From Armatimonadota bacterium (GTDB taxonomy: Bacteria; Armatimonadota; Chthonomonadetes; Chthonomonadales; Chthonomonadaceae), in contig JAGWMJ010000004.1 of the NCBI GenBank assembly GCA_028871815.1, forward strand, positions 186,001-250,000: DNA of 64,000 nt, in the 5' to 3' direction. The notes below the pieces were generated by a model that saw nothing but the letters and a program-made list of their open reading frames with translations, did no database searches and was not told the DNA's origin. Position numbers and translations under genes: made by a program. Of this stretch, positions 44,680 through 55,758 are shown piece after piece; the first letter of the stretch is position 1; each line of letters opens with the position of its first letter.

Positions 44680-47600
44680 TCACCGAATCTCGAGCGCCTG
44701 CAGCACTGCGCTGCACCGGCTGTCGGCCTTCACCTGGATGACGATGTTGCCCTGCGCGTCTGGTTCCACACCCGTCGTCCGCAGGTCGCATGCCATTCCC
44801 GTTTGCCCCGCCGCGGATCCGGGATCCCAATGCCGCCATATCGTTTCGTTGTTAATTCGGATGTCCATCGGCCTGCGACCCGGCGTGTGGTTCCATAACT
44901 CCGCGAACTTCAAATGAACCGTGTAGAGGCCGGCTGGCAGCGGCACCCGAAAAGTTAGCAGTCGGCCGGCGATGCCGGTCTGGTACAGGCCTTGATCGTA
45001 GAGTGTTGGCGACGCCTGCGTCACCGCTCGCACGGTTCGGATTGTGTGCGCACCAGGGGGAGCCTGCGCCGGTCGCCAGATGTCACCATCCCAATCGACG
45101 TAAGGTTTGGTGGCGCCGGCATCGAGCAGGACGGCCGGCCGGAATTCCGGCAGGATCTCGATCCCCTGGACGGTTGCTTCGTGTGATACCTGCAGAGGGT
45201 CCCATCCGGTATGAAAGCCAATGTCGATCCGGCCGTTACGATTCGGAACCACATACCGAAACACGCGACTGACCGCGATATGCCGGCCGTGCGCGGCCTG
45301 GCATATGTCGAAGTTCCGCAGGCGCTGCTCACCATTGATTGACACGTCAAACGGTCGTTGAAACGACCATCGCAGTCTCGGCTCTGCAAACAGCAGCCGA
45401 ACCGAGTAGATGCCATCCCCTACGGGAATGGAATATCGAAAGTCACTGCCGGATCGCCCGCGCTCGTAAAGTGCAGGCGTGGCGGGTAGTGACGGCATAG
45501 CGAATCGCGCCGCGGGCTGGCGGGCCAATCTGTGGCCGCCGCGAAACCAGCGATCGGCCGACCAACGGTTTCCGCTGCTGTCGATTACCGAGCGCCGCGA
45601 ACCGCACCAAACGCGAATCGCGCGCGGCCTGCCGTCGATGGCGGCGCGCCGGCGGTAGACAATTCGCGGCATCCACGCGATTACGCAGCCGTGCGGATTC
45701 TGTGAGTGGTCCAGCGTGAACCAGATCGTGTCCCCGGCGACTACCTTCAGTTCCAGCCGGTGGGTCACGCCCTGCAGGTCATTGTTGCGGATCCGCGCCC
45801 ATCCCGTCGCTGGCCAAACCTGGCGCTCGTTCAGGCTTATGCGTACGCGCAGCGTATCGCCCGTATTCCGGCGGTAATACTCCTTCATTACCCGCCCAAC
45901 CACCGACACTCTGCCGCCGCGCGATGCGGTCCATCCTCGGCAGCAAGCGTCCGCATCGCCGGCGCGCTGCCAGCCCCTTCCAACTCGCGCGCCACCAGAG
46001 CCTTGCCAGTACCCCTCGGCGCCCCCCGGCTGGTTTGGCGTTCCGTTCGCGTCACCGGCTGGGCTTGCCGCCGGCGCAATCCAACTCATTTTCGTAAACT
46101 CGCCATTTGCAGACTGCGTGGCGGCAGACCAGCCGCTTCTCCCCTGGCGGCTGAAAAAGCCGCCAAGGGCACAAGCCTGCACCGGTTCCCCATCGAGACG
46201 CAGCGCAGTGACCCAATCGCTTCGATTTCCATCACCGTCGACGGTTCGCACTGCATAGTCTGCCCGCGCCCGTGCGGTGGCGGAGTGGTCGAAGAAGTAG
46301 AGGCCGGTGCTCACCGAGCCGATCACAACATGGTTGCGGCTTACCTCATACCGACTTACCCAGTTATTGTCTGTTCCTGCCGACCAGTAGATCCCCACAC
46401 CGCTGTGACCGATGTTCGTCTCCTGTCGGCAATATGCTCGCCCGGGAGCGCTCGGCCGGGTGTGATCAAGGCCGCTGCCCGGGCGGTTCGGCAGGTTGAG
46501 GTAGATCAGCTCGCCGGGTGGCGTGTGCAGCAGTACGATGCCGGATTGCATCAACGATCTGCCGGTGCGGATGGTCGTTTTGCGAGTGGAGGCGAATCCG
46601 ACGCGATACCTCATTCCGGGCACCAGGCCCGCCGGACGGATCGTGACGGCGCCGGATGGTCGGTTCTTCAGAATGATGCACGCGCGGGTGGCGCCATAGT
46701 TGATGCGCTCGAACACATCCGATTCGTTATCGCCTTTAACTTTTGGTCGCAGTGCATACGACCAGCGTCCCGCTACACCCGTGGCAAGAAGATAGTGGTA
46801 AATCTCCGCGATCTGCCTCAGCTGCTCCTGATCGGCCACAGAGGCATACAGGTCCCAGCATGGTGTCATCGTAAGTAGCTGGCGCCCCGTATCCGGATCG
46901 TACCGACCGCCGGTTTTGAAAGACGGCATCAAATCCATCCACTTGTCGGGAGTTTCAAGGTACGAGAGCCACGTGTTGGTCTGTGCTCCTTCGCCGGGAT
47001 CGGAGAACATGTTCACATCGGCATACTCCTGAGTGCTGAAGGTGTGGCCAAAGCTGCCGCCACCATTGCACGTCTGAAAAGAGCTGCCTGGGAACCGCAG
47101 ACGGAACGCGGTGATCCACGCGCGGAACATGGCGTCGGTCCGGAGGTTGAATGCCGGCAGACCATCGGTACGCCACTGAAAGTCACCCCATGCGCCGACT
47201 TTGGAGGCCATCAACCCCGGCGTGGGTAGGTGGCAAAACCATAACGCCCAGTTCATGCCCATCTTGCGCAAGTAGCGCTGCGTCAGGCTGAAGTCGGGTC
47301 CTTCCCGGCTCGGCGACCAGATGTCTGGATTCTCGCTCCAGCCGGCGTCGTCCCACAGGGTTTCCATTCCCACCGTTCGCATCATGTCCGGGAAATCCAT
47401 ATCGAGCTGGCCGAGGCGGCCTGTAAAGTTCTCCTGGAGGTTACGCGCGTCGTTGTACCAGGCTGTGTCCCACTCCATTCGATCTACTTTGTCGGCCTGT
47501 GAATAGCCCCATAAGTACTGGTATTGCCAGTCGTACAACCGGCGACTCATGTCGTCCAGGCTTTGATGGAAAAGGCCGAATGTGGTGACTGGAAGGTTGA

Positions 47601-48969
47601 ATTGAATGTGCGGAAGCAGATTCAACGGGCCGGGATCGGTGACTTCACTTCGCAGTATTGGGCCACCCAAGCGGGACGGTTGCAGCGCGAACCGCCAGGA
47701 GCCGATGTAGTCCAGCGCCATGAACAGACCGTCGGGGTGATGCCCCTCACGAATTGCAGCCAACCACGGCCAATACTCACGCCCCATTTCGGATTGAATC
47801 GTCCAGGACGTAGCGCGGCTAAGCCCTTTGCTGGCCAGATCACCTTGCCCGGCGCCGTTGGTGCCGCCATGCAGCCAGTATTGACGCCACCTGGCTTGCC
47901 CAATCGCGAGCGCGGATTGAAACGGGCGAACCAACCGTACGGGAGTCATCATTGGCGACCCGTTGATCAGCGTGAGCCACGTCCGCACGACGGCAGTATG
48001 CGGAAAGGCAAGAGTGTGGAAGACCGCTTTAACCGGATAGTGATCCAGGAATATACGCAGCTCTGCCGCGGGACGCCCTCCGGCGCTCACGAGGAGCGCC
48101 TGCGAGCCTGTCACCTTCCAAACGCTTTGTGAAGGTTTGCGGGCGCGCGGACGGGACTTGATGAGTAGTACCGCGATATCCACCACGTGATAGCCACGCA
48201 AATGGCGCGCGATGCCGTGGACGGTCACAACACCATCTCTTGGCGCCGTCCATAGGCGAACAGCGTCCATCCCGGCGCCGGGATGCATCATCGTCGCGCC
48301 TACATGTGGCACATCGCCCGGAGATCGCAACCCACTGGCTTGCGCGGCGATACGCACGCGTTCACGAGCGTTCGCCTGGTACTCCACGCTGTCCAGTGGT
48401 ATGAGGCGCGACGATGTGGGCATCCAAACGCAATACCGCCAGATTGGCCCCTGGTTCAGTGACGCGCCCTGCGAACTGAACGTCTGCCCGTTTCGGTATT
48501 GCACCGAAGTGATCCACTGCATCTGGTCGCCGCGATAGTCACCGTGCGGTCCTACAGCGAAGCCGATGGCGTCGCCGCGACGCACCCGGATCGGCCCGAC
48601 GGCTGAGCCGGGATCGGCTGTGTCGTTCGAAGGCACAGCTTGACGCCACAGGGTAGCGGCTGGGACTTGCCCGGGCCCATGCCGGAACCGGACGCGGAAG
48701 ATCGGCATCCCGTCTCCCCGGGCCATTAGCACAGGCTGACCATCGAATCGGCTGTAGAGGCCGGAGAGCGTTATTCCGCCGCCTGTTGCGTGGTAAGCGA
48801 GTGTGTATTCGGGTGAGGCAATTGACCAGCTCCTGTCATCGCTCGCGGTGGTGATATGGACATCGGCACACTGCACGATGCGCCGGTGATTCGGATGCGC
48901 AGAGGCGGCGGAGGCAAGCGTTGAAAGTGCAAGCGTGGCGAAGAGCGGGGCCGAACAAGGTCGGTACAT
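44680..48969 (-). CDS. Secreted GH36-like glycosidase with Fn3-like and two malectin-like domains
   Basis: A 1429-residue exported enzyme; signal peptide YRPCSAPLFATLALSTLASAASA, with GGAG upstream of the ATG. Residues about 30-400 look like the beta-sandwich N-domain of GH36/melibiase-like enzymes. About 460-780 is the barrel, with METLWDDAGW, MNWALWFCHLPTPG, FQTCNGGGSFG and VNMFSDPGEG. FQTCNGGGSFG parallels the Cys-Ser-Gly-Gly-Gly motif of GH36. A short Fn3-like module follows (about 870-950), then two malectin-like carbohydrate-binding modules (about 1115-1275 and 1276-1429), each with a SVRLLFAE or TVHLKFAELW strand. An alpha-galactosidase-like activity on plant or microbial glycans is likely but unproven. 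Confidence 0.78.
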   Translation of the reverse strand: MYRPCSAPLFATLALSTLASAASAHPNHRRIVQCADVHITTASDDRSWSIASPEYTLAYHATGGGITLSGLYSRFDGQPVLMARGDGMPIFRVRFRHGPGQVPAATLWRQAVPSNDTADPGSAVGPIRVRRGDAIGFAVGPHGDYRGDQMQWITSVQYRNGQTFSSQGASLNQGPIWRYCVWMPTSSRLIPLDSVEYQANARERVRIAAQASGLRSPGDVPHVGATMMHPGAGMDAVRLWTAPRDGVVTVHGIARHLRGYHVVDIAVLLIKSRPRARKPSQSVWKVTGSQALLVSAGGRPAAELRIFLDHYPVKAVFHTLAFPHTAVVRTWLTLINGSPMMTPVRLVRPFQSALAIGQARWRQYWLHGGTNGAGQGDLASKGLSRATSWTIQSEMGREYWPWLAAIREGHHPDGLFMALDYIGSWRFALQPSRLGGPILRSEVTDPGPLNLLPHIQFNLPVTTFGLFHQSLDDMSRRLYDWQYQYLWGYSQADKVDRMEWDTAWYNDARNLQENFTGRLGQLDMDFPDMMRTVGMETLWDDAGWSENPDIWSPSREGPDFSLTQRYLRKMGMNWALWFCHLPTPGLMASKVGAWGDFQWRTDGLPAFNLRTDAMFRAWITAFRLRFPGSSFQTCNGGGSFGHTFSTQEYADVNMFSDPGEGAQTNTWLSYLETPDKWMDLMPSFKTGGRYDPDTGRQLLTMTPCWDLYASVADQEQLRQIAEIYHYLLATGVAGRWSYALRPKVKGDNESDVFERINYGATRACIILKNRPSGAVTIRPAGLVPGMRYRVGFASTRKTTIRTGRSLMQSGIVLLHTPPGELIYLNLPNRPGSGLDHTRPSAPGRAYCRQETNIGHSGVGIYWSAGTDNNWVSRYEVSRNHVVIGSVSTGLYFFDHSATARARADYAVRTVDGDGNRSDWVTALRLDGEPVQACALGGFFSRQGRSGWSAATQSANGEFTKMSWIAPAASPAGDANGTPNQPGGAEGYWQGSGGARVGRGWQRAGDADACCRGWTASRGGRVSVVGRVMKEYYRRNTGDTLRVRISLNERQVWPATGWARIRNNDLQGVTHRLELKVVAGDTIWFTLDHSQNPHGCVIAWMPRIVYRRRAAIDGRPRAIRVWCGSRRSVIDSSGNRWSADRWFRGGHRLARQPAARFAMPSLPATPALYERGRSGSDFRYSIPVGDGIYSVRLLFAEPRLRWSFQRPFDVSINGEQRLRNFDICQAAHGRHIAVSRVFRYVVPNRNGRIDIGFHTGWDPLQVSHEATVQGIEILPEFRPAVLLDAGATKPYVDWDGDIWRPAQAPPGAHTIRTVRAVTQASPTLYDQGLYQTGIAGRLLTFRVPLPAGLYTVHLKFAELWNHTPGRRPMDIRINNETIWRHWDPGSAAGQTGMACDLRTTGVEPDAQGNIVIQVKADSRCSAVLQALEIR

Positions 48970-49100: not shown

Positions 49101-50498
49101 TTATGGCTGGAAGGGATACGGCTGGAACACGGGCCGATGAACCAAACGTCGCGGCCGTTCGGTGATCCGCAGCGTCATCGATACGTTTCGACCGGCACGT
49201 AATACGGTCGCCGGTACTTCGGCGCCGGGTCGCAGCGAAACAGACAGCGCGCGCACCTGGCTCGACGTGGTGATTATGACGCCGTTGATCGAGACGAACG
49301 CATCACCCGGCTCAATGCCGCTCGTATACGCTGGCGAACCTGGGAAGACACCGATTACCAGAACGCGTCGAGCAGCATCGAGCACGCCGTTGTGCCAATC
49401 CTCTTTTGCCTGTTCACGGGGAATCACGCCGATCCATCCCCTCTTGATGGGTTTGCCGCTCCGCAGGTCGGCGATGGTGCCCTTGAGGCTGTTGATCGGC
49501 ACCGCAAATCCTGCGCTGCTGACGGGCAGGGCAAAGAAGCTGAACACGCCGTTCTGCGGTGGCGCACCCGGCGTTCCGGGCAAGGGCCGCACGGTCACGG
49601 TTGTGGACGTATCGCGGTCGCCGCCTGCACCGGCCGGTGGACCGGGTCTCGGTGGAACAGCACCGCCGGTGCGGCCACTTCTCGCCCGTGACTCGTCCCT
49701 TCCGCCGGTGGCGCCGGGTCGAGGTCCCAGACCGGCAAAAAGGTTCTGTGGGAAGTAGTGGTCACCGGGAACTGCAACTACAATTCCCACTACATCACCA
49801 TCGGCATCCAGTAGCGGCGCGCCGCTTGTCCCGGCCCCTATGGTACCTGCCACCTGAATCAATGCTGGATAGAAGTGCCCGCCGGAGAATGCGCCATTGT
49901 TGCGAATGCCGCCTACCAGGTTCAGCGAGGCCGAGTTGTGTTCGCCGTTCTGGTTTCCAATAGAGATGGTGAAGTTACCGACGGCAAGGGTGCTGGAGTC
50001 GCCGAGCCGCAGCGCCGGAAGGTTGACCTTGCCCTGCAGCTGGAGCAAGCCGACATTAAGCACCGAGTCGATACCAAGAGTCCGCGCCTTCACGCGCACG
50101 CCCTGGTCGGTGACGATTACGGGATTCGTCATGCCCTCCAAAACATCGGCCGAGGTAAGCACATAGCCATCGCCGATGCAAAACCCCGTACCCGATTTTG
50201 GCGGTGCCGGCAGCGCCGGCCGGCGCGCCGGACCCGGTGGTCTTGGTGCGGCCGGCTGTGTGGCGCCGGCGGGCTGGGCAGGAGCGACTCCTGGTTGAAT
50301 TGGCCGCGCTCGCTCCAGCGCTATCATGGTGATGGGTCGGTCATCGTACACGGTAACCACCGATGGCCGGCAGCGCGTTACGATCTGCGCGACATCGGCG
50401 CCGAGTTGACTTAGCAGTGATTGAGCGCCCGCCGCCGGACAAAGCGCAACCAATATGGAGCAGATAGCGCAAATGCGCGCTGCACGGCAACTTACCAT
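49101..50498 (-). CDS. HtrA-like protein with PDZ domain, catalytic His and Asp lost
   Basis: A 465-residue exported trypsin-like protein with signal peptide (AICSILVALCPAAGA). The chymotrypsin fold is clear (GTGFCIGDGYVLTSADVLEG; LPALRLGDSSTLAVGNFTISIGN; GAGTSGAPLLDADGDVVGI) and a C-terminal PDZ domain follows (GVFPGSPAYTSGIEPGDAFVSINGV). At the triad, the His of TNAHVV is Asp118, the Asp of TDLAVL is Asn148, and only Ser225 (GTSGAP) remains. A long Pro-rich insert sits before the fold and another Gly/Pro-rich one before the PDZ. ATG 50498 has GGGAG upstream. It overlaps the end of the anti-sigma gene, so the three genes form an operon. A non-proteolytic chaperone or sensor role is inferred. 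Confidence 0.82.
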   Translation of the reverse strand: MVSCRAARICAICSILVALCPAAGAQSLLSQLGADVAQIVTRCRPSVVTVYDDRPITMIALERARPIQPGVAPAQPAGATQPAAPRPPGPARRPALPAPPKSGTGFCIGDGYVLTSADVLEGMTNPVIVTDQGVRVKARTLGIDSVLNVGLLQLQGKVNLPALRLGDSSTLAVGNFTISIGNQNGEHNSASLNLVGGIRNNGAFSGGHFYPALIQVAGTIGAGTSGAPLLDADGDVVGIVVAVPGDHYFPQNLFAGLGPRPGATGGRDESRARSGRTGGAVPPRPGPPAGAGGDRDTSTTVTVRPLPGTPGAPPQNGVFSFFALPVSSAGFAVPINSLKGTIADLRSGKPIKRGWIGVIPREQAKEDWHNGVLDAARRVLVIGVFPGSPAYTSGIEPGDAFVSINGVIITTSSQVRALSVSLRPGAEVPATVLRAGRNVSMTLRITERPRRLVHRPVFQPYPFQP

Positions 50499-51319
50499 GC
50501 GGTGGAATCTCCCGATTCCGGCGACCATGACGCCGTGGTTGGAGTTACGTTACCGGCGCCATAGCCGCCGATCACATAGTGGCGCTGCGGCTGCTGCTCT
50601 GCAGACATCGAGACAGGCGCCATTACGTACTCAAACCGCGACCTGGGCTCTTGCTGGCCGGCGCCGTCGAGTGACGCAAGCTCCATCTGGCTGTTGTTGC
50701 CGGGCGAGAGGCGGCTGCGCAGCGCCTTTTTGGCAGTGGCACCTACAGTTGACCGCGGGTGAAAGACGGCATTCTGTACCGAAACGTGATGACGCGTGGG
50801 TAACATGGCAAGCCGTATCGGCGGGTGCACCACGGCGCGTGGCTGTCGATGTGTGTCAGCGGCAATTACAACCTTAGGATGGCTCCGCACAGGTACGACC
50901 GCCGACGAGCCGGCTGAGTTCGGTGCAACCGTGGCGAATCTCGTTCCTCCGAAATTGTGCGTAGATGCCAACTGTGGTGCTTGTGATCGAACAACCAACA
51001 GAAGTGCGACGGCCAATGCACCGCAAAGGCTGCCGGCGCCGGTGAGGAGAATGGTACGGCGCGAATGGCCCCTCGCTGCCGGCTGTAGGTGAGGAAGAAT
51101 GGCGGCGAAGTTACCGGCGCAGGTTGGCAATGGCCGCGAGCGGGCGGCGGCAAACGTTGCCGTGAGCCGCTGTTCCAAGGCTAGCTCTTGGCGGCAGCGT
51201 GCGCAGCCGACCAGATGCTCCTCCAGGCGTACTTTGCTTGCGCCGTGCAGCTCGCCGGTTGCATAGTCCCACAACTGCGGTGCAAAGTGCCGACACCGTT
51301 GCGTGCGAAGATGGATCAT
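50492..51319 (-). CDS. Membrane-anchored anti-sigma factor (zf-HC2)
   Basis: A 275-residue protein. The N-terminal zinc anti-sigma domain has CRHFAPQLWDYATGELHG and EEHLVGCARCRQE. A helix at about 88-110 (TILLTGAGSLCGALAVALLLVV) follows, then a long basic, Ser/Ala-rich external region with no known domain. The ATG overlaps the sigma-factor stop (ATGA) and the 3' end overlaps the HtrA-like gene. By analogy with RseA it should hold the sigma factor at the membrane and release it on an envelope signal. Confidence 0.85.
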   Translation of the reverse strand: MIHLRTQRCRHFAPQLWDYATGELHGASKVRLEEHLVGCARCRQELALEQRLTATFAAARSRPLPTCAGNFAAILPHLQPAARGHSRRTILLTGAGSLCGALAVALLLVVRSQAPQLASTHNFGGTRFATVAPNSAGSSAVVPVRSHPKVVIAADTHRQPRAVVHPPIRLAMLPTRHHVSVQNAVFHPRSTVGATAKKALRSRLSPGNNSQMELASLDGAGQQEPRSRFEYVMAPVSMSAEQQPQRHYVIGGYGAGNVTPTTASWSPESGDSTAW

Positions 51320-51945
51320 TGTGCGTCACCCGTGCGGTAGACCGATTCCAGCCGCTCCCTCAGCCGTTTGCGTGCCCGAAAAATCCTCAGTTTGGCGCTG
51401 GCGGCCGAAATACCAAGTATCGAACCGATTTCGCTGCAGCTCATTCCTTCCAGTTCGTGCATTACAATCAGATTACGGGCATCGTGCGGCATATTCTTAA
51501 CGATGCGCATGAGAAGGTCCGCATCGTCCGCGCTTACCGTGGCATCGAATGGGTCAACTCCCCCTTCAACAGTGCGGACATACTCTGGGGGATCAACCGG
51601 ATCGTACAGGACCTCAGCTCGTCGCTCCCGGATTTTGGCTCGATCACGGCAGACGTTGCTGCAAATCGTCAACAGCCACGTTAGCAGGCTGCAATCATTT
51701 CGGAACCGGGGAAACGCGCGAAATGCGCGTATGAAAGTCTCCTGGCGAGCGTCGTCGGCATCGTCGCGATCATTCAACAGGTACCAGGCATGCCGGAACA
51801 CCTGCGCTCCATACTGGGCGTAGACTTGCGAGAATGCCTCGGTATCGCCGGCGCGGCAACGTACAACGAGTTGATCGTCGGCTATCCGCACGCGTACCTC
51901 TTGAACCGCGAGTGTCGTCACAAAAGCGCCCCCCGTCTTGTACAT
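51316..51945 (-). CDS. ECF-type RNA polymerase sigma factor
   Basis: A 209-residue sigma factor of the RpoE-like group. Region 2: DRDDADDARQETFIRAFRAFPRF with SLLTWLLTICSNVCRDRAK. Region 4: DARNLIVMHELEGMSCSEIGSILGISAASAKLRIFRARKRLRERL. It heads the operon sigma, anti-sigma, HtrA-like. TATACT on the minus strand at 51984-51979 could be its -10, but no -35 fits well. The remaining 159-base gap to the deacetylase gene shows nothing clear. Confidence 0.9.
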   Translation of the reverse strand: MYKTGGAFVTTLAVQEVRVRIADDQLVVRCRAGDTEAFSQVYAQYGAQVFRHAWYLLNDRDDADDARQETFIRAFRAFPRFRNDCSLLTWLLTICSNVCRDRAKIRERRAEVLYDPVDPPEYVRTVEGGVDPFDATVSADDADLLMRIVKNMPHDARNLIVMHELEGMSCSEIGSILGISAASAKLRIFRARKRLRERLESVYRTGDAQ

Positions 51946-52104
51946 TAGACGATGGCGCGGCGGATCGGTATCGCGTAAAGTATAGACGAGCCGTTAGCGT
52001 GGAGCGTGTCGAATTCAGCACAATCCGTGTCGCAGGCAGGTGGCAACGCAAAGGAGGCTAGGGCAGCAGCTAGACCAGCGAGGCATTTTGCCATGGTGGC
52101 GCCA

Positions 52105-52936: not shown

Positions 52937-54346
52937 CTAGTTGGCCGGGCCGGGCGCAACGTTTCCGGCCAGCCGCGCTCGCAGTATCTGCAGAGCCTTG
53001 TCAAGCTGCAGGTCGTGGGTCTTATCGGTAACGCCCTTCCAGCCTGCCGGCTGGGTTACGGCAACATTCGGCAGCACGCCACCGGTACCAGGAACCTTAT
53101 TCCCGTCGTTATCGTGTGTAAAGCTCAAATCGTAACCGCTTGGCGGAAAGTAGAGCTGCGTTGTGAGGCGAAGCGCACTGCCGTCATCCATCGGGAACAG
53201 AGTCTGAACTTCGCCCTTGCCGTATGTACGTTCGCCGACAACCGTTCCGGCGCCGTAGTCTTTGATCGCGGCCGTAACAATCTCGGCTGCGGAGGCACTG
53301 CTGCCGTTTGCCAGCACGACCAGTGGCATGGGATGGTAAAGCGGGTCTGGGTCGACCAGCTTCTCGTACTGTACATTGCCGGCTGCGTCACGAATGGAGA
53401 TGACCGCGTTGTGATAGGCCGCGTGCATGCGGCCGCGGATAAAGACGCTGGCGACCTGTAACGCTACGTCGAGCAGGCCGCCGGGATTTCCACGCACGTC
53501 AAACACCAGCCCGCGCATCCCCTGGGCGTCCAACGCCCGGAAAGCCACGTCCATCTGCTGCATGCTTTTTTCGTTGAATTCGCTCAGGGCAAGATGTCCG
53601 ATTTTGGCTTTCGGGTCTTCCATCCAATACTGAACTACGGGAGGCTCGACGAGCGCGCGCGTGATATCAAATGGCAGCTGCTTCTTATCCCGCAGGATGG
53701 TGAGATGAACGATGGTGCCTTTTGGTCCCTTAATCAGCTTGACCACGTCGTCGATGTTCTTACCGATGGCCGGAACCCCATCGACCTTGGCGATAATGTC
53801 GTTCGCCTTGATGCCGGCTTTCTCGGCGGGCCCACCCTGAATGGGCTCGGCCACCATGGTGTTCGGGCCGTCTTGTTGCAGCATCGCGCCGATGCCTTCG
53901 AAGTCACCCTGAGTGGTGATCGTCATTTGGCCCCATTCGCTGGGATCAAGGAACGTGGTGAACATATCCTTCAGGCTGGCGAGCATCCCTCGAATGGCGG
54001 CATAGGTCAACAACCGCTTCTGCTTGGCGTCGATGACCGTTCCATAGTGGTACTTGGCAAGAAGGCGCAGAGCGGTTTCGTAATTCTGCACCGGGTCGTC
54101 TGGCGTTACCTGGTCGCCGGCGTACGAAACTGCCGGATCTGCCGACTTCGTGGTAGCAAGGTCGCGGTCGTTCCGCGAAGCAAGCCGGATCGGCGCGCCA
54201 CCGGCATTGCTATGCCAGTTACTGCTCGCATAGCCGGATAGGATGGAGAAGCCGAGCAGGAGCGCGGCGCCCGGCACTGCTAGAAGCGCGCCGCCACGCC
54301 ACGATCGACCCCTGGTTTGAACTCGGCTGGATTCGGGTTGAGACAT
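52937..54346 (-). CDS. S41 C-terminal processing peptidase (CtpA-like), intact
   Basis: A 469-residue membrane-anchored protease with an N-terminal helix (GALLAVPGAALLLGFSILSGY). A PDZ domain (FEGIGAMLQQDG...GGPAEKAGIKANDIIAKVDG) precedes the S41 core, where VFDVRGNPGGLL, Ser352 in GSSASAAEI and Lys377 in TYGKGEVQ make up the catalytic dyad. It should cleave periplasmic or cell-wall-associated proteins. ATG 54346 lies two bases after the stop of the degenerate paralogue. The deacetylase gene follows one base later. Confidence 0.92.
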   Translation of the reverse strand: MSQPESSRVQTRGRSWRGGALLAVPGAALLLGFSILSGYASSNWHSNAGGAPIRLASRNDRDLATTKSADPAVSYAGDQVTPDDPVQNYETALRLLAKYHYGTVIDAKQKRLLTYAAIRGMLASLKDMFTTFLDPSEWGQMTITTQGDFEGIGAMLQQDGPNTMVAEPIQGGPAEKAGIKANDIIAKVDGVPAIGKNIDDVVKLIKGPKGTIVHLTILRDKKQLPFDITRALVEPPVVQYWMEDPKAKIGHLALSEFNEKSMQQMDVAFRALDAQGMRGLVFDVRGNPGGLLDVALQVASVFIRGRMHAAYHNAVISIRDAAGNVQYEKLVDPDPLYHPMPLVVLANGSSASAAEIVTAAIKDYGAGTVVGERTYGKGEVQTLFPMDDGSALRLTTQLYFPPSGYDLSFTHDNDGNKVPGTGGVLPNVAVTQPAGWKGVTDKTHDLQLDKALQILRARLAGNVAPGPAN

Positions 54347-54348
54347 CG

Positions 54349-55758
54349 CTACGCGGCCTCCAGCACGCTGGCTGCTCGCTGCAGCGCGCCCTCGGTATCC
54401 ACCAGATCGGCAGCCAGCAGAACGTCTGGCGTTACGCCCGAGGCAATGGATGCGCCGGTTTGCGTGCGCACGTGCGCCCACGCGATCTCTATTCCGGCTC
54501 CGTTCGCCATCTGTTCGTATCGCCGAATAACCGGATCGCCAAATGTTCGCGATCCCACAATGCGAGCCCCGGCATGCCTTAACGCAACTGCTGCCAACTC
54601 GGCCAGGTTGGACGTGCCGCCGTCAACCAGCACGGCAATCCGAAAGTGGTGTGACTGCGAAACCGGAATGGAAAACGGCTCGGTGTGTTTCGGCGCTGTA
54701 GCCAGCAGCGCTTCTGGTCCACCGGCGGTGAGACGAGCCAACAGAGCGCGCTCGGCACCGAGTCCATCCAGCTCGGGCGTAGTGGATGCCCACACGCCGC
54801 CTGGGTTACCACGGAGATCGATTACAAGGTTCCTGGCATTCGATCGGCCAATGGCGTCCAGCGCCACGCCCCATGCGTGTTTCGCCGCGCCATCAAACTG
54901 CCTGACCTGGAGGTACGCCGTATGCGGGTCGATGTTACGCCAAACGACTGGCTGTACCGTGGTCACGCCGGTTGTAATCGTTATCGCGGATGGAACGGTT
55001 TTACCGTCTCGTGTAATTCGGATGGAGTAGCTCGTGCCGGCGCCGGTAGTCAGCATCGACATAGCTTTGGAAATGAGGTAGCCGGAGATGAAACGTGCCT
55101 CGATGATCTTGGCTTCCGCAGCTATCTTCTGGATATTGGCGCCCGGCTGCCGCTCCTCATCCTGAAGGTGGGTGTAGTCCACGAGAGGGCTGTACGAGAT
55201 AATCCAGTGCTTTCCGATATCGGTGATCCGGTCACCCGCGTGCAGCCCGGCCCGCGCCGCCGGCCCACTGGGCGCCAGATCCATTACCGTGAGGTAGCTG
55301 TAGGCCACCTTGGAGCCATACTCGGTCGCCGTGGCGCCCCGCACTTCAAGGTCTGCGCCGATGCCGTGGTACGTTCCCGACAACATCGCCGCCTCATTGA
55401 TGCGCGCGGGGCCATCCATGTACCATGTTGCAGGATCATCGAGGGAAGCAACCATGGCGGTAAGCGCGCCTTTGGTGAGGCGACTGTCGGTTGCCATTTC
55501 AGGGTGAACGTACTGATGCTGAACCCGGTCCAGCACGATTTCATAGACCGCTTCAGGTGGCGTTGATGAGGGGTCCTGGTGCATCAGGCCTGCCAGACCC
55601 AACTCGGCTCCGGTCTTGGAGATTAGCCTTGCAAGCGAGTGAAACCGTGAACCCGGACGGTTCAGCGCAAATCCTACCCGCCTGCCCCACGCGAAACCGC
55701 CGACCGCCAACAAGGCGGCGGAAATGGCGATCCACCGATGTGCAGCAACTCTAGCCAC
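54349..55758 (-). CDS. S41-like protein with catalytic Ser and Lys replaced (pseudo-protease)
   Basis: A 469-residue paralogue of the next gene, with an N-terminal signal anchor (IAISAALLAVGGFAWG). PDZ-like region: HGIGADLEV...GPAARAGLHAGDRITDIG. Core: LVIDLRGNPGGVW is conserved, but the catalytic Ser aligns with Asn384 (GGTSNLAEL) and the catalytic Lys with Asp408 (TFGDPV). The fold is preserved and the frame is unbroken. GTG at 55758 has GGAGAG upstream. It probably regulates, or forms mixed oligomers with, the active peptidase translated immediately after it. That role is inference. Confidence 0.82.
   Translation of the reverse strand: MARVAAHRWIAISAALLAVGGFAWGRRVGFALNRPGSRFHSLARLISKTGAELGLAGLMHQDPSSTPPEAVYEIVLDRVQHQYVHPEMATDSRLTKGALTAMVASLDDPATWYMDGPARINEAAMLSGTYHGIGADLEVRGATATEYGSKVAYSYLTVMDLAPSGPAARAGLHAGDRITDIGKHWIISYSPLVDYTHLQDEERQPGANIQKIAAEAKIIEARFISGYLISKAMSMLTTGAGTSYSIRITRDGKTVPSAITITTGVTTVQPVVWRNIDPHTAYLQVRQFDGAAKHAWGVALDAIGRSNARNLVIDLRGNPGGVWASTTPELDGLGAERALLARLTAGGPEALLATAPKHTEPFSIPVSQSHHFRIAVLVDGGTSNLAELAAVALRHAGARIVGSRTFGDPVIRRYEQMANGAGIEIAWAHVRTQTGASIASGVTPDVLLAADLVDTEGALQRAASVLEAA

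Follow-up and report, generated by a model that had tools for sequence, protein, structure and literature searches.

A catalytically dead HtrA-like protein, encoded in an operon with an ECF sigma factor and a membrane anti-sigma factor, probably acts as a sensor that does not cut but holds on to the conserved C-terminal tail of the anti-sigma factor, because the residues needed for cutting have been lost in every operon examined (33/33). The operon lies in the window analysed here, a stretch of 64,000 nucleotides from the 3.68 Mb genome of an Armatimonadota bacterium whose nearest named relatives are Chthonomonas and Chthonomonadaceae.

The original prediction had described an overlapping operon for a sigma factor, an anti-sigma factor and an HtrA-PDZ protein, and all three genes were found in place on the minus strand, in that order and with neighbouring genes overlapping by a few bases (Table 1). 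The first product is a sigma factor of the ECF class, having regions 2 and 4 only (Pfam Sigma70_r2, E = 1.6e-13; r4_2, E = 1.4e-11) and scoring 81.5 bits against a cut-off of 42.9 for TIGR02937 (sigma70-ECF). GTG 51921 is a possible start instead of ATG 51945, and the sigma factors at the equivalent place in most relatives are 36–45% identical. The anti-sigma factor has the HxxxCxxC motif of a zinc finger (zf-HC2, E = 2.8e-8; 34.1 bits against a Pfam cut-off of 22.2), a transmembrane segment at about residues 92–110 by hydropathy and a gene adjoining the sigma gene, which together identify it as a membrane anti-sigma factor of the ZAS type; the zinc-finger His and two Cys are invariant in the Chthonomonadaceae alignment. 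The sigma and anti-sigma genes overlap by ATGA. From its first ATG the HtrA-like reading frame spans 49101–50528, and its most likely start is ATG 50498, within the sequence ATGGTAA that it would then share with the anti-sigma stop; this start yields a clean signal peptide (MVSCRAARICAICSILVALCPAAGAQ) and agrees with the starts of relatives in the alignment. At two loci the anti-sigma and HtrA-like genes lie in one reading frame.

Table 1. Features of the operon and its upstream region, in window coordinates.
Feature	Position	Strand	Description
Putative autoregulatory ECF promoter	51983–52010	−	GACACG-N16-CGTCTA; motif upstream of sigma gene
ECF sigma factor	51316–51945	−	209 aa from ATG 51945; Sigma70_r2, Sigma70_r4_2, TIGR02937
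Membrane anti-sigma factor	50492–51319	−	N-terminal zf-HC2 (ZAS), one TM, long disordered periplasmic part
Anti-sigma C-terminal tail	50495–50578	−	YVIGGYGAGNVTPTTASWSPESGDSTAW-COOH; putative ligand of the HtrA-like protein; conserved above linker in four clades
HtrA-like pseudoprotease	49101–50498	−	465 aa; signal peptide, trypsin-like domain, Pro-rich linkers, one PDZ

The HtrA-like protein belongs to the S1C HtrA/Do fold family, with a trypsin-like domain followed by a PDZ domain, both above Pfam cut-offs (Trypsin_2, E = 1e-20; PDZ_2, E = 3.3e-8). The AlphaFold2 model is confident for both domains (most blocks with a pLDDT of about 80–92) and disordered in the Pro-rich linkers between them, and structural comparison with DegP, DegQ, AlgW and MucD gave Z values of 25–30. 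Alignment to DegP, MucD and relatives revealed that the His-Asp-Ser triad of active HtrA/Do proteases is replaced by D118-N148-S225 (D128, N158 and S235 from start 50528), exactly the residues predicted when the protein is numbered from start 50498. Asp stands at the His position (TSADV for TNxHV) and Asn at the Asp position, and the Ser is kept within GTSGAP, for GNSGGP. In the window protein, this loss argues against cleavage of the anti-sigma factor on PDZ peptide binding, as in DegS and AlgW. Scores for the DegS/AlgW equivalog TIGR02038 (71.9 bits, cut-off 422.95) and the NCBIfam MamO equivalog (20.7 bits, cut-off 800) fell below threshold, and the Pfam result for the protein contains no MucB_RseB domain (PF03888). 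Padloc matches were only to the trypsin part of RT-protease fusions and were discarded. At the LA-loop position, leading from the first strand to the protease core, several copies (L042–L046) carry long coiled-coil-looking insertions, and the window protein has a Pro-rich stretch there (about residues 53–100 of the 465-aa form).

We searched 61 relatives and then 291 Armatimonadota genomes and compared the surroundings of the matches. The order sigma, anti-sigma, HtrA-like recurs at 33 loci in four families, namely Chthonomonadaceae (f1) and three further families labelled f6, f29 and f36. Dead HtrA copies are present in 15/17 Chthonomonadaceae genomes, ten f6 genomes, five f29 genomes and one f36 genome, 35 copies in all, two of which are separated from the sigma gene by contig ends. 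None of the 33 operons encodes an HtrA-like protein with an intact His-Asp-Ser triad, which bears out the original prediction of a stable, regulatory-looking module and not one in decay; and since all 33 share the layout, each with a non-canonical triad, a chance arrangement is excluded. The triads are D-N-S or E-N-S in f1, with one S-N-N copy, D-N-S in f6, N-D-S in f36, and DGP, EGS, ENP, EGQ and DGP in the five f29 operons. Among the dead copies, the His position almost invariably carries Asp or Glu, the Asp position holds Asn or Gly in all but one, the triad Ser is retained in 30/35 and the two flanking Gly in 35/35. As the oxyanion-loop Gly and the Gly following the Ser are invariant, the shape of the cleft is probably retained. 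Completion of the triad by another His, which the original prediction had allowed for, was rejected: the best His column among the 35 copies reaches only 8/35 and lies in the PDZ region.

H-D-S is present in the HtrA proteins encoded away from the operon, whether in these or in other genomes, the three exceptions being second copies of operon loci. In an unrooted tree built by a quick method with SH-aLRT and no bootstrap, and with the triad columns removed, a branch with 99% SH-aLRT support separated all canonical HtrAs from all dead copies; f1D, f1E, f6 and f29 each formed one group, with weak deep placement of f29 and f36. The dead copies have a dN/dS of about 0.06–0.20 for pairs with unsaturated synonymous sites. 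By these comparisons, the HtrA-like protein is an old, maintained pseudoprotease. Two loci of a further family, f14 (L096 and L097), encode in one run a sigma factor, a short anti-sigma factor, a MucB/RseB-like protein (PF03888) and an HtrA with intact H-D-S, a layout that resembles algU-mucA-mucB-mucD. Because their HtrA sits in the canonical clade, these loci represent a parallel solution and not a dead-HtrA operon with a working triad. Sampling beyond the phylum covered two phyla and gave no occurrence in 299 genomes (a sample without a positive control) and one match in a second sample of 198 genomes, where the HtrA is canonical and no sigma gene accompanies it. In four Chthonomonadaceae genomes the operon is present as a pair of paralogues, of which one has D-N-S and the other E-N-S: G003 (L044 and L053), G007 (L046 and L055), G012 (L043 and L052) and G015 (L045 and L054). 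The paralogues differ slightly in the −35 element where the promoter motif was found (GATACG vs GATAAC), and in the last residue of the anti-sigma tail (W vs Y).

The periplasmic part of the anti-sigma factor, 100–185 residues long across loci, is barely conserved except for its last 15–40 residues. In the AlphaFold2 model of the window protein, residues 1–60 are confident and residues 82–275 almost all have a pLDDT below 50, i.e. are predicted to be disordered; disorder of the tail in isolation is as expected for a ligand. The core of the tail is a Y-[VI]-[MI]-x strand, frequently ending in W, Y or F. Within f1, the window tail reads YVIG...AW, D-type tails Y[VI]MG...AW or PW, and E-type tails YIMGTLTP...AY or YVMSALQP...PY; f29 tails read YLPxxYG...SF, and f6 tails (YVIEAAYPATAGAVE) end in VE with no terminal aromatic residue. 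The terminal Trp codon of D-type tails, including that of the window, overlaps the htrA start (ATGGTAA), so that the start/stop overlap accounts in part for this Trp.

In blocks of 15 columns, the mean pairwise identity lies mostly at 0.06–0.2 for f1 and f29 linkers and at about 0.3 for those of f6, compared with 0.30–0.76 for most tail blocks. The pattern [YF][VIL][MILVPST] occurs within the last 40 residues at 31/32 loci, compared with 6.5 loci on average and 15 at most in 500 shuffles; the sequences counted here are related. Amino-acid-changing differences per site (pN) are lower in the tail than in the linker in all nine close pairs, by a factor of 1.6 to 3.8. This pattern of conservation looks like that of a short binding motif, whose natural partner would be the PDZ/HtrA protein encoded alongside, and it suggests that the PDZ domain or the cleft of the HtrA-like protein binds the anti-sigma tail itself. 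A conserved C-terminal tail, which the original prediction had not noted, also makes direct control of the anti-sigma factor more plausible. Binding of the tail by the PDZ domain may not be general, given the non-aromatic VE ends of the f6 tails.

The region preceding the sigma gene contains GA[TC]A[AC][CG]-N16-CGTC(TA) at 23/33 loci, compared with 0.016 expected per region; the matches lie in f1 and f6, with the conserved form GATAAC-N16-CGTCTA, and the motif was not found at the f29 or f36 loci. Its conservation ahead of the sigma gene indicates autoregulation. A genome-wide search with the promoter pattern for the wider regulon gave no signal (31 matches, compared with 55 for the reversed control pattern). 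Directly upstream of the start codon, the sigma-gene leaders of f6 also contain a hairpin that hardly varies, about 70 nt long and with an outer stem of 13 bp (CGGTGCGGGCACC/GGTGCTCGCACCG), located at L100:5269-5487 and at equivalent places in nine other genomes (L047, L048, L051, L099, L101–L104 and L107). Searches of four f6 genomes located it once in each, Rfam has no match to it, and its conservation exceeds that of the synonymous sites of the sigma gene; it is a candidate cis-regulatory RNA.

The RpoE-RseA-RseB-DegS-RseP system of E. coli and the AlgU-MucA-MucB-AlgW-MucP system of Pseudomonas share with this locus an ECF sigma factor with a membrane anti-sigma factor, an RseP-like protease and an HtrA-PDZ protein with a putative periplasmic-side role. 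DegS and AlgW are active proteases and not operon partners, whereas here a dead HtrA takes the place of operon partner and the anti-sigma factor carries a zinc-finger (ZAS) domain. RseB and MucB have a LolA-like fold and not that of HtrA. They shield RseA and MucA from DegS and AlgW (PMC8545111, PMC7400510). In Mycobacterium, the sigma, anti-sigma and htrA genes are likewise adjacent (sigE-rseA-htrA-tatB), but sigE and rseA are not cotranscribed there, and the HtrA, a serine protease, is essential and is described as degrading an amidase of the cell wall (PMC10027907). The HtrA/trypsin_2 pseudoprotease MamO, from magnetotactic bacteria, is also conserved for a non-catalytic function; it differs in retaining His and Asp, in carrying Thr in place of Ser and a residue other than Gly at the oxyanion position (chymotrypsin 193; Gly in all 35 dead copies here), in binding metal via two surface His and in its role in magnetosome formation (PMC4794232). 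Control of anti-sigma proteolysis by an envelope protein that does not itself cut is known from PbpP, which controls RsiP cleavage in the SigP-RsiP system of Bacillus thuringiensis (PMC8092216), and from FoxA, which shields FoxR in Pseudomonas (PMC11637429); as a penicillin-binding protein and a TonB-dependent transducer, the two have folds unrelated to the HtrA-like protein. In its logic, the present system comes closest to shielding as by RseB/MucB or activation as by MamO, and not to cleavage as by DegS.

Of these, we tentatively prefer RseB/MucB-like action, in which the pseudoprotease would shield the anti-sigma tail until stress ligands displace it and another protease cleaves. Its support, which lies at the level of sequence, comprises the HtrA fold and signal peptide, the lost triad, the shared operon, the conserved tail and the putative autoregulatory promoter. 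The third gene product would be an exported HtrA-type pseudoprotease and a fixed part of the sigma/anti-sigma switch. In unstressed cells, it would bind the C-terminal tail of the anti-sigma factor, probably as a trimer like its relatives, through the PDZ pocket, the inert substrate cleft or both, and so protect the flexible periplasmic stalk from another, active site-1 protease. When the envelope is under stress, unfolded polypeptides would compete for the tail-binding sites and free the tail, whereupon the anti-sigma factor would be destroyed by the active protease and then by an RseP-like site-2 protease, and the released sigma factor would transcribe its own operon. The overall function would be RseB/MucB-like on an HtrA scaffold; tail binding, the sign of control, the ligand and the site-1 protease are the parts that we infer.

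Consistent with shielding, the PDZ domain is intact and confidently folded, the tail is conserved relative to the linker and the genome encodes an RseP-like M50 protease. Against it stand the VE ends of the f6 tails, the overlap that helps to fix the terminal Trp of D-type tails, and MucB/RseB-like genes elsewhere in several, indeed most, of these genomes; the presence of the latter also leaves unsupported the idea that the dead HtrA substitutes for a lost RseB. A broader proposal, possible if doubtful, is that these proteins form an HtrA pseudoprotease subfamily, ancient in Armatimonadota, that serves as a dedicated, non-cutting receptor for the C-terminal ligand of its own anti-sigma factor, with the termini of unfolded proteins and the tail in competition for one inert HtrA, whose fold would be a signalling switch that involves no proteolysis.

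Ranked below shielding, and unlikely in our estimate, is an activator or adaptor like MamO, in which the dead HtrA would bind an active paralogue of itself, e.g. in a mixed trimer, as well as the anti-sigma tail, and present the anti-sigma factor for cleavage once stress peptides occupy the PDZ domain. MamO is a precedent in that it activates MamE-dependent proteolysis, and inactive/active pairs have evolved repeatedly (PMC4794232); PbpP, whose gene lies close to sigP-rsiP, is required for site-1 cleavage without being the protease (PMC8092216), and intact HtrA paralogues are encoded in the genome. However, no active HtrA lies beside the dead copy in the operons examined, and the Gly kept at the oxyanion position here is missing in MamO (PMC4794232). 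Less likely again, the protein would be an output and not an input, a stress-induced periplasmic chaperone (holdase) that happens to share a transcript with its regulator, a frequent situation for htrA in systems of the sigma-E type. Stress responses commonly have HtrA genes among their outputs, as with degP in the RpoE response (PMC8103513) and rseA-htrA-tatB in Mycobacterium (PMC10027907), and some HtrA proteins can act as chaperones (PMC12826053), but this explanation accounts neither for the conserved anti-sigma tail nor for the loss of catalysis by the operon copy alone, in every operon.

Residual or re-wired catalysis, with Ser225 and the acid at the His position forming an unusual pair that slowly cleaves the anti-sigma factor, would fit the retained Ser, the flanking Gly pair and the nearly fixed Asp/Glu; it is very improbable, as the Ser is replaced by Pro or Gln in 4/5 f29 operons and, in a single f1 copy, by Asn, all copies except one have Asn or Gly at the Asp position and a conserved His is found nowhere. 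Recent decay to a pseudogene with ordinary loss of function, which the broken triad taken by itself would suggest, was rejected as next to impossible, given an open reading frame under purifying selection, comparable substitutions across the 35 copies from four families, the split in the tree and 33 operons without an intact triad.

The best-studied task of HtrA proteins in envelope-stress signalling is the cutting of anti-sigma factors. If shielding by the dead copy is correct, the HtrA scaffold would also be usable as a pure sensor or shield, and a further bacterial HtrA pseudoprotease besides MamO would have been retained for a non-catalytic job; it follows as a protein-peptide prediction, simple and open to test, that the anti-sigma tail binds to the PDZ domain or the cleft. 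Loci that combine ECF/anti-sigma genes with htrA are already known (Mycobacterium sigE-rseA-htrA, PMC10027907), as are HtrA pseudoproteases (MamO). What appears to be new is the combination of a conserved anti-sigma tail with a conserved dead HtrA that is a constant part of the sigma/anti-sigma operon: the literature searched, which covered few subscription journals, yielded no description of a sigma operon with a dead HtrA, and no anti-sigma mechanism in Armatimonadota turned up there.

Two neighbouring regions of the window, both on the minus strand, deserve mention. Directly downstream of the operon, 44680–48969 encodes a secreted-looking protein of 1429 aa with malectin domains, for which the f1 and f6 relatives checked showed no counterpart close to the operon. 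At 54349–55758, adjoining an apparently intact CtpA (52937–54481), lies an S41/CtpA-like protein in which, judged by eye, the Ser region TSNLAE is kept and the Lys motif GKG has become GDP, and which may be a second dead protease.
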